A stretch of DNA of 64,000 nucleotides from Tumebacillus algifaecis (lineage in GTDB: Bacteria; Bacillota; Bacilli; Tumebacillales; Tumebacillaceae). This document shows positions 23,423-46,889 of this stretch, in pieces; within the stretch, counting starts at the first letter, position 1, and every line of letters starts with the position of its first letter. The position numbers were made by a program, and so were the translations under genes. The DNA lies in NCBI RefSeq assembly GCF_002243515.1, contig NZ_CP022657.1, positions 2,905,001 through 2,969,000 on the forward strand, read 5' to 3'. The notes below the pieces were generated by a model, which was not told the DNA's origin, did not search any database, and saw only the letters and a program-made list of their open reading frames with translations.

Positions 23423-23508
23423 TGGTGCGAGTAGCCGGACTCGAACCGGCACGGGGTTGCCCCCGACAGATTTTAAGTCTGTTGTGTCTGCCATTCCACC
23501 ACACTCGC
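23423..23508 (-). tRNA. tRNA-Leu (UAA anticodon)
   Basis: The 86-base gene has a seven-base-pair acceptor, class II long variable arm (about 15 bases), anticodon TAA and an encoded CCA. It is the last tRNA of the cluster. Confidence 0.95.
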
Positions 23509-23529
23509 ATGGGGAATTTTTAAAATAAT

Positions 23530-23603
23530 TGGAGGTGGCACCCGGATTTGAACCGGGGGTCAAGGATTTGCAGTCCCACGCCTTACCACTTGGCTATGCC
23601 ACC
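23530..23603 (-). tRNA. tRNA-Cys (GCA anticodon)
   Basis: 74 bases with encoded CCA, anticodon GCA in a normal loop, and acceptor stem GGTGGCA pairing with TGCCACC. Confidence 0.95.
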
Positions 23604-23609
23604 TCATTA

Positions 23610-23684
23610 TGGAGCGGAAGACGGGATTCGAACCCGCGACCCTCGCCTTGGCAAGGCGATGCTCTACCCCTGAGCCACTTCCGC
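23610..23684 (-). tRNA. tRNA-Gly (GCC anticodon)
   Basis: 75 bases with encoded CCA; anticodon GCC; acceptor GCGGAAG with CTTCCGC. Its 5' end abuts the stem-loop array. Confidence 0.95.
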
Positions 23685-23870
23685 ATACAGGATGTATGCG
23701 TCCCGCGATGCGACAGGACGTCGCGATTTTAGCGGGGCTACCTCCGTCCCGCGTTGCAACAGGACGTTGCGATCTAAGCGGGGCTACCTCCGTCCCGCGA
23801 TGCGACAGGACGTTACGAACAGGATGTTCAGTATCCAACGTTGCGACAGGACGTCGCGCCCTTAGTTGGA
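23683..23870. repeat. Array of six covarying stem-loops in the tRNA spacer
   Basis: Between tRNA-Gly and tRNA-Phe, six short hairpins share the core AC-AGGAY-GT while their stems differ but stay complementary: GCATAC (23683), GCGAC (23710), GCAAC (23756), GCGAC (23802, imperfect), GAAC (23817) and GCGAC (23843). Three are in 46-base tandem units, and units 2, 3 and 6 also have an outer stem CCCGC/GCGGG or CCAAC/GTTGG. The stems covary, which argues for selection on folding. Confidence 0.85.
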
Positions 23871-23884
23871 CTTCCTTTGAAAAA

Positions 23885-23960
<76 letters not shown>

Positions 23961-23980
23961 TTGTGTAGCAAGAAAAGAAA

Positions 23981-24057
23981 TGGTGACTCGTACGGGATTC
24001 GAACCCGTGAATGCCGCCTTGAAAGGGCGGTGAGTTAAGCCGCTTCTCCAACGAGCC
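23981..24057 (-). tRNA. tRNA-Glu (TTC anticodon)
   Basis: 77 bases, encoded CCA, anticodon TTC in the loop CTTTCAA. Confidence 0.95.
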
Positions 24058-24063
24058 ATGCGA

Positions 24064-24139
24064 TGGTGCCTTTTACCGGAATCGAACCGATGACCTCATC
24101 CTTACCATGGATGCGCTCTACCTACTGAGCTAAAAAGGC
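24064..24139 (-). tRNA. tRNA-Thr (GGT anticodon)
   Basis: 76 bases, encoded CCA, anticodon GGT in the loop ATGGTAA. Confidence 0.95.
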
Positions 24140-24144
24140 GTATC

Positions 24145-24220
24145 TGGCTCCCCGAACAGGACTCGAACCTGTGACCATCCGATTAACAGTCGGGCGCTCT
24201 ACCAACTGAGCTATCGAGGA
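24145..24220 (-). tRNA. tRNA-Asn (GTT anticodon)
   Basis: 76 bases, encoded CCA, anticodon GTT; acceptor TCCTCGA with TCGGGGA (one wobble pair). Confidence 0.95.
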
Positions 24221-24224
24221 ACAA

Positions 24225-24299
24225 TGGTGGAGATAAGCGGATTCGAACCGCTGACCCCCTGCTTGCAAGGCAGGTGCTCTACCAACTGAGCTATACCCC
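24225..24299 (-). tRNA. tRNA-Ala (TGC anticodon) with a deletion in the acceptor stem
   Basis: Anticodon TGC in a normal loop and the alanine identity G3-T70 pair are present, but the 5' acceptor strand reads GGGG-TAT before TAGCTC where the 3' strand TATCTCC calls for GGGGATA. One base (A5) is missing, leaving 75 bases and a six-base 5' strand. Probably a degenerate tRNA or a sequencing error. Confidence 0.85.
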
Positions 24300-24305
24300 A
24301 TTAAG

Positions 24306-24382
24306 TGGTGCCGAAGGTGGGACTCGAACCCACAAAATCACGATTTTGAGTCGTGCACGTATGCCAATTCCATCACTTCGGC
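24306..24382 (-). tRNA. tRNA-Leu (CAA anticodon) without the long variable arm
   Basis: 77 bases with encoded CCA. The anticodon is CAA and the D arm is of the leucine type, but only five bases (ATTTT) separate the anticodon stem from the T stem. Bacterial leucine tRNAs normally have a variable arm of ten or more bases. Confidence 0.8.
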
Positions 24383-24385
24383 AGA

Positions 24386-24460
24386 TGGCTGGGGAGGAAG
24401 GGATCGAACCTTCGCATGACGGAGTCAAAGTCCGTTGCCTTACCGCTTGGCGACTCCCCA
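24386..24460 (-). tRNA. tRNA-Gln (TTG anticodon)
   Basis: 75 bases with encoded CCA; anticodon TTG; acceptor TGGGGAG with CTCCCCA. First tRNA in the transcript. Confidence 0.95.
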
Positions 24461-46718: not shown

Positions 46719-46889
46719 GTTGAGCGGCAAAGATAACAACTAGCAACGGCGAGAGCTGTTGCAGGCAACCGCGGAGAAGACTTAGGTTTCCCCATAAGCC
46801 TCTTCCTCCGGTTTCTCCTCTCCCAGTGCTTGCCGTGCAAACGGTGAGCGAAAACCCGCGTATACCCGGACGCGGGTCTTTCTTTTTTC
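46719..46889 (+). ncRNA. Candidate structured RNA or leader with terminator
   Basis: About 170 bases fold into ordered elements: P1 CGGCAA/TTGCCG (46725-46730 with 46830-46835), P2 with a GAGA loop (46743-46762), a long P3 (46768-46812) with bulges, P4 CCGT/ACGG (46833-46844) that overlaps and competes with P1, and a terminator. The GNRA loop and T tail favour the plus strand, upstream of the 95-residue gene. It does not match any riboswitch I can recall. In B. subtilis a ylbH leader RNA lies in a comparable gap but on the opposite strand; that reading must also be tested. Confidence 0.5.
46853..46889 (+). terminator. Terminator ending the structured RNA
   Basis: Seven base pairs ACCCGCG/CGCGGGT (46854-46860 with 46871-46877) and the tail TCTTTCTTTTTT, 50 bases before the next ATG. 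Confidence 0.8.

Follow-up and report, generated by a model that had tools for sequence, protein, structure and literature searches.

Hairpins in a tRNA-Phe/tRNA-Gly spacer of Tumebacillus algifaecis are copies of Bacillaceae-1 (RF01690), a possible interspersed palindromic repeat

The window, that is, the whole 64-kb stretch of Tumebacillus algifaecis DNA that was analysed, contains ten tRNA genes, all of them on the minus strand at 23423-24460 (ARAGORN). The genes for tRNA-Phe and tRNA-Gly(GCC) in this cluster enclose a spacer of 200 nt (23685-23884) that is crowded with similar hairpins (Table 1). The spacer is presumably transcribed together with this cluster, whose genes share one strand. 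Since both flanking tRNAs are encoded on the minus strand, this is the operon strand and the spacer loops read RTCCT on it, as a preliminary description of the sequence had maintained. The same description had counted six copies of a conserved core, and all six were located: ACAGGAYGT occurs on the plus strand of the spacer at 23687, 23713, 23759, 23805, 23819 and 23846, and the whole window holds 9 matches, where shuffled versions average 0.86 and do not exceed 3. The stem scan found uninterrupted stems of 5-7 pairs in five of the six spacer hairpins; in one of these the outermost pair is G.U. The stem of the remaining one (core 23805-23813, GCGAC/GTTAC) is broken, so that the "six hairpins" originally described are five sound hairpins and a damaged one. 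The hairpin at the tRNA-Gly end reaches into the gene, its last 3 nt being the first 3 nt of mature tRNA-Gly. Also borne out were the 46-base tandem units, recovered as an array by Tandem Repeats Finder, and the outer stems CCCGC/GCGGG and CCAAC/GTTGG, which can be seen directly in the sequence. Folded alone, the 200-nt spacer was not clearly better than its shuffles on the minus strand (z -1.36), and the plus strand gave z -2.52. A 5' AGGA is complementary to the UCCU loops and might form a pseudoknot with them. Elsewhere in the window, the ylbH leader lies on the minus strand at 46769-46887.

Table 1. Features of the tRNA-Phe/tRNA-Gly spacer and its borders, in window coordinates; hairpin sequences are those of the minus strand.
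Feature	Coordinates	Strand	Basis and remarks
tRNA-Phe (gaa)	23885-23960	-	ARAGORN; upstream neighbour of spacer
Full Bacillaceae-1 (RF01690) copy: outer stem around a GTCCT-looped inner hairpin, followed by an ATCCT-looped second hairpin	23816..23881	-	cmscan 62.7 bits; model R1 73.9 bits; adjoins tRNA-Phe
Hairpin GCGAC-GTCCT-GTCGC	23843..23857 (core 23846-23854)	-	core search and stem scan
Hairpin TGAAC-ATCCT-GTTCG, outermost pair T.G	23816..23830 (core 23819-23827)	-	core search and stem scan
Damaged hairpin, stem GTAAC/GTCGC interrupted	23802..23816 (core 23805-23813)	-	core search; absent from stem-scan list (uninterrupted, at least 4 pairs)
46-bp tandem array, outer stem and inner hairpin without second hairpin, 2.6 copies	23699..23818	-	Tandem Repeats Finder, 89% matches
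Hairpin GCAAC-GTCCT-GTTGC	23756..23770 (core 23759-23767)	-	core search and stem scan
Second full Bacillaceae-1 (RF01690) copy	23684..23748	-	cmscan 50.9 bits; model R1 59.7 bits; abuts tRNA-Gly
Hairpin GCGAC-GTCCT-GTCGC	23710..23724 (core 23713-23721)	-	core search and stem scan
7-bp hairpin CGCATAC-ATCCT-GTATGCG	23682..23700	-	stem scan, tRNA ends, junction listing
tRNA-Gly (gcc)	23610-23684	-	ARAGORN; downstream neighbour of spacer

The preliminary description did not recognise the family to which these hairpins belong; cmscan identified it as Rfam RF01690, Bacillaceae-1. Two full copies in the spacer score above the Rfam gathering score of 35 bits (Table 1). Two hairpins, conserved loops and covarying stems were found in the alignment and the pair counts, and the contexts are those of Bacillales, near rRNA/tRNA clusters or between coding genes. 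The unit of about 67 bp consists of an outer stem around one hairpin, followed by a second hairpin, and the loops are nearly fixed in both, mostly as RTCCT and sometimes as RTCGT. The spacer hairpins are copies of this already catalogued element of the Bacillus group, plus tandem extra units. A 2022 paper in Gene by Gonzalez-Tortuero and colleagues is said to be devoted to Bacillaceae-1 and to distinguish rRNA-associated and intergenic classes; upstream of the 16S gene of B. subtilis, the expressed strand is reportedly the reverse complement. The family was first described in 2010 (Weinberg et al., 2010; PMC2864571), eight copies were newly annotated in B. subtilis in the BSGatlas (PMC8208703) and ten were counted in a Brevibacillus draft genome (PMC5764928).

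That folding is selected and the loop bases are fixed, as had been claimed from the single locus, is supported by the alignment and by covariation in relatives. The covariation score was 0.633 in 80 distinct copies and 0.525 in 106 distinct copies, against shuffled means of 0.166 and 0.159, and 0 of 500 shuffles reached it in either set; the weakest of five covariation measures, further pair types in the 80 copies, was reached by 20 of 500 shuffles. Sliding the stem partners abolishes the covariation. Fitting the alignments to the model works in its favour, but the pairs use all four Watson-Crick types. The preliminary description had made its case depend on the occurrence of the motif in relatives and on covariation above background: a match was obtained in at least 82 of the 398 class genomes (80 of them above the cut-off), a lower bound given the stricter filters of the class scan, and the covariation exceeds that of the shuffles.

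The wobble pairs indicate on which strand the pairing has been kept, because selection on a hairpin at the RNA level lets G.U pairs pass, and a G.U pair appears as A.C when the opposite strand is read. Among 365 unique copies, 5320 cells comprised 5095 Watson-Crick pairs, 68 G.U and 73 A.C; for these counts stem 1 was taken without its two outermost pairs and stem 3 without its outermost one, which leaves 15 of 18 pairs, and the Fisher test took the approximate counts 67 and 72 as input instead of 68 and 73. In 148 terminator-like hairpins of the same loci, which served as a control, there were 40 G.U and 5 A.C. The stems of tRNAs contained 7.5% G.U, a fraction without an A.C count, since ARAGORN admits standard pairs only. 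Near equality of G.U and A.C overall, unlike in the terminator-like hairpins, indicates that pairing is kept regardless of strand on the whole. In this genome alone, G.U prevails by 11 to 2 (p 0.022), and in the stable-RNA copies of another genome (G002) by 8 to 2; the own genus gives 15 against 8 (p 0.21). The excess in this genome and in the stable copies of G002 hints at a constraint at the RNA level. Little wobble or mismatch, exchange among the four Watson-Crick pairs and the lack of an overall strand asymmetry would also be expected of relics kept perfect by mutation alone, in which template switching corrects palindromes and produces compensatory changes without selection. This explanation is improbable, as it accounts neither for the conservation of loop and internal-loop bases among diverged copies nor for the multicopy spread, nor for degraded-looking copies in the same genome.

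The orientation of the copies provides a second line of evidence. There are 24 RF01690 matches in this genome, 22 of them above the cut-off, and all 24 lie inside rRNA/tRNA operons on the operon strand; our own covariance model found 26 copies, all 26 of them sense. Genus-wide, 76 of 77 examined copies are in rRNA/tRNA operons, and all 76 of these are on the transcribed strand. At three complete 16S genes of this genome the unit ends 67-68 nt upstream of the gene, and in three leaders it is directly followed by TGATCCTTGAAAACTAAAC, which we take to be boxA-like. A c-di-GMP-I riboswitch lies near an rRNA/tRNA cluster of this genome (L034, 12341-12432). Among 411 model matches from the genomes sampled, 178 of the 182 copies in stable-RNA operons are sense and 4 are antisense. 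This tally takes in L107, L118, L119, 14 of the 26 loci L045-L070 and 14 further stretches (which include the places of L104, L105 and L108); the other 12 of L045-L070 came from genomes that had already been sampled (G002, G012 and G013), L106 is identical with L123, and L103 was dropped as the same place as L422. Two places are duplicated among the 411 rows (L099/L131 and L050/L082), both dispersed, so that the stable count is unaffected, and some "dispersed" calls may be wrong where the rRNA is cut off or unrecognised (e.g. L430). A replication-strand cause of the sense bias was considered and rejected: the 33 scattered matches of one genome (G143) show no bias, since a hand count that placed the origin at coordinate 0 gave 9 plus against 11 minus for the right arm and 8 plus against 5 minus for the left.

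The 3' ends of the units tend to be flush with the mature 5' end of the downstream RNA. With paralogous and tandem copies counted, the distance is 0-1 nt in 13 of 13 cases for tRNA-Met, -1 or +1 in 22 of 34 for tRNA-Gly(gcc), 0 nt in 21 of 28 for 5S and 1-3 nt in 10 of 13 for tRNA-Val. About three quarters of the unit-free spacers are 20 nt or less, and with spacers that are short anyway the flush position is partly forced. Both orientation and position speak for a functional spacer RNA in pre-tRNA or pre-rRNA, which could be a processing aid, an insulator, a protein site or a small RNA freed by RNase P and 3' trimming, with the dispersed copies as by-products. Further points in its favour are that 36 of 37 combinations of family and downstream RNA are only sense (counted before three further antisense copies joined, with four lacking a detected downstream RNA and named loci counted singly), that the Val>Met slot is common to families f1, f3 and f26, and that G.U exceeds A.C in this genome. 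However, over all sense copies the G.U excess is not significant (38 against 28, p 0.27), 316 of the 398 class genomes are without a match under the strict filters, and the same tRNA pair can do without the unit elsewhere in the same genome. Glu>Val spacers of this genome are reduced to TTT (3 nt) at one place and measure 69-115 nt with units at others, Val>Met spacers contain degraded-looking units, and the Phe>Gly spacer of the sister genus has 19-31 nt and no unit. The Glu>Val and Val>Met spacers, together with the position of most sampled relatives' copies away from tRNAs, lend no support to the earlier suggestion of a tRNA-processing device.

The four antisense copies also bear on this functional RNA. 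One of them occupies a 151-nt tRNA-Tyr/tRNA-Trp spacer of G002, flanked by the apparent arms of another repeat. G163 and G237 hold the remaining three, of which one in G237 is at a contig end near tRNAs (L424). In both G163 and G237 (L423) an antisense unit is located directly upstream of 16S, where it is sense in the congeners G026, G326 and G397, so the same place carries opposite orientations between species of one genus (L422 and L423 versus L425-L427). Such a reversal at an equivalent position of the 16S leader speaks against a sequence-specific RNA there. The reversed units agree with what the 2022 paper reportedly says of the expressed strand. Taking both sides together, a functional spacer RNA appears rather unlikely as the primary role of the unit.

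The strand of the element has been in question before: in one later paper, the discoverers of Bacillaceae-1 are described as unsure of it, and the reverse complement is proposed to bind CsrA (PMC4333381). The unit would then be a CsrA sponge, bound through the ANGGA loops of the opposite strand. The plus-strand core ACAGGAYGT does resemble a CsrA site, judged by what we take to be the consensus, and CsrA is encoded in this genome (PF02599 at C1:477557). The csrA gene was matched in 79 of the 82 positive genomes and in 154 of the 316 remaining ones, a comparison confounded by phylogeny (motile Bacillales), which may explain the co-occurrence, and in some 16S leaders the operon strand is indeed the reverse complement. 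Nevertheless, the operon's minus strand has TCC loops at this locus, and the GGA strand is not the operon strand elsewhere in this genome either, nor in 178 of the 182 stable-RNA copies. Among unique copies, only 100 of 147 stable ones and 113 of 195 dispersed ones retain GGA in each of the two antisense loops, and three positive genomes (G005, G196 and G267) gave no csrA match. The strand result and the loop content make a CsrA sponge most unlikely for these copies.

Outside stable-RNA operons the unit behaves as a scattered element. A strict-consensus scan of named genomes returned at least 118 stretches, 80 of which were examined; among the matches listed, these came from Halobacillus, Oceanobacillus, Lysinibacillus, Cytobacillus and the like, genera which we take to belong to the Bacillales. 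In these 80 stretches, 83 of 88 pattern matches among those listed are at least 500 bp from any tRNA or rRNA found in the stretch, and the five near one are all sense. Compared with their called neighbours, 96 dispersed rows divide into 34 with both, 26 against both, 18 between convergent and 8 between divergent genes, besides 9 within greedy ORF calls and 1 with an unknown neighbour; the dispersed copies show no clear orientation preference. Nine copies fetched from a genome of the same order (G004; L082-L090) are dispersed; no tRNA or rRNA was detected close to them, and they have mostly six-base loops and a common 3' end TGATCA followed by A's. In G191, four fetched copies have 16S upstream and 5S downstream, and at L118 the rRNA order is 16S-5S-23S with the unit between 16S and 5S.

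The same site exists in occupied and empty versions, both in the tRNA spacers and at a dispersed site. The latter follows a 467-aa ORF and was compared in 25 congeneric loci (26 genomes searched): only G176 has the unit there, and the other 24 loci are without it at that site, though two of these carry one at another point of the stretch. In G176 the additional sequence exceeds the unit in size, and its exact ends cannot be fixed, as the congener spacers differ. In another genome one unit interrupts the inner hairpin of another (G285; L176, 2381-2560), and in several genomes larger mosaic repeats enclose the unit. Larger dispersed repeats with ACAGGCATAAG ... CTTATGACC arms and variable inserts are present at L128, L135, L159, L298 and other loci, some of them carrying the unit, and a scan of 10 loci gave no Rfam family for these host repeats at gathering score. 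Because the unit is often located inside larger mosaic repeats in dispersed hosts, it may be carried and not self-moving. Some tRNA spacers of family f3 (L390-L392, L404-L406 and L417) and L072 contain other large inverted repeats, of the GGGGTTCCC ... CACTTTGTGG type. At an orthologous site between genes presumed from their sequence to be mnmE and mnmG, compensated changes in the inner hairpin separate the G312 copy from that of G276, and the G312 version equals some other G312 copies, which suggests homogenisation within the genome.

Of the three guesses made in the preliminary description, the mobile repeat fits best, given the patchy presence, the scattered copies that number dozens in some genomes, the occupied and empty sites and the degraded-looking copies. 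These comparisons of sequences suggest that Bacillaceae-1 is a DNA element of repeat-like character, which is copied and takes up residence in tRNA/rRNA spacers, and not a special tRNA-processing device. The spacer would be a pile-up of Bacillaceae-1 units, and the unit an interspersed palindromic repeat in which pairing counts at the DNA level, a reading to which we give an even chance. The unit is found at many sites and in tandem arrays, and the occupied, empty and degraded-looking sites would reflect copying in, followed by decay. The hairpin would be needed as DNA, in the form of a single-stranded hairpin or a cruciform, by whatever copies the unit. Copies in tRNA operons are presumably transcribed, would fold in the precursor and be removed by normal tRNA and rRNA processing. 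The sense bias, in turn, might come mostly from selection against the other orientation, or failure to keep it, in very abundant transcripts. A purely DNA-level repeat does not by itself predict 178 sense copies out of 182, and so strong a bias leaves room for a role of the RNA. The Y1 (RAYT-type) transposase (PF01797) was matched in 13 of 21 unit-bearing genomes searched, with no match in this genome, two congeners and 5 further genomes of the 21. No excision or insertion events were observed in the comparison, nor did a mobilising gene emerge.

A bolder version can be offered tentatively, as a conjecture that may well be wrong: Bacillaceae-1, catalogued as an RNA family, would in the first place be a DNA repeat, interspersed, palindromic and of a new type, made of two loop-tagged hairpins that are recognised as DNA by a non-Y1 enzyme, repeatedly colonising rRNA/tRNA spacers in the transcribed orientation and occurring even in reverse at one and the same position in sister species. 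The locus richly represents a known family with an unsettled role and a strand that has itself been doubted (PMC4333381). The wobble asymmetry, the 178:4 orientation and the filled, empty and reversed sites are direct ways to tell an RNA function from a DNA repeat. If the repeat reading is true, the sRNA label of Rfam, now being carried over to new genomes, would have to be revised, and the spacers of tRNA and rRNA genes would be a preferred home of such repeats in some genera.

Comparison with known systems places the spacer closest to Bacillaceae-1 (RF01690) itself, with full-length matches on the tRNA-operon strand and the same stems, internal loop and hairpin loops. It differs in its extra tandem units without the second hairpin and in that 76 of 77 examined copies of this genus are in stable-RNA operons, whereas most sampled copies of Bacillaceae are dispersed. 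The E. coli sponges of the 3'ETS-leuZ type are hairpin-bearing pieces between tRNA processing sites, and by analogy the present spacer would likewise be freed by maturation; unlike them, it is known from sequence alone. REP and REPIN elements with their RAYT (TnpA-REP) are also short extragenic palindromes present in dozens of copies and in mosaics, with fewer copies between divergent than convergent genes. Bacillaceae-1 is unlike them in having two different hairpins with nearly fixed loops and no Y1 match in this genome, and membership of the RAYT-type REPs was rejected on the lack of a Y1 transposase match in three genomes of this genus. REPs with RAYT are described as having a tetranucleotide, GTAG or CGTC, at the base of their hairpin (PMC3733652). 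Finally, MITE-like repeats of Bacilli such as bcr1 resemble Bacillaceae-1 in being intergenic, structured and present or absent at orthologous sites; the 67-bp unit differs from them in having no identified terminal inverted repeats or target-site duplication and in lying inside larger repeats in some hosts.
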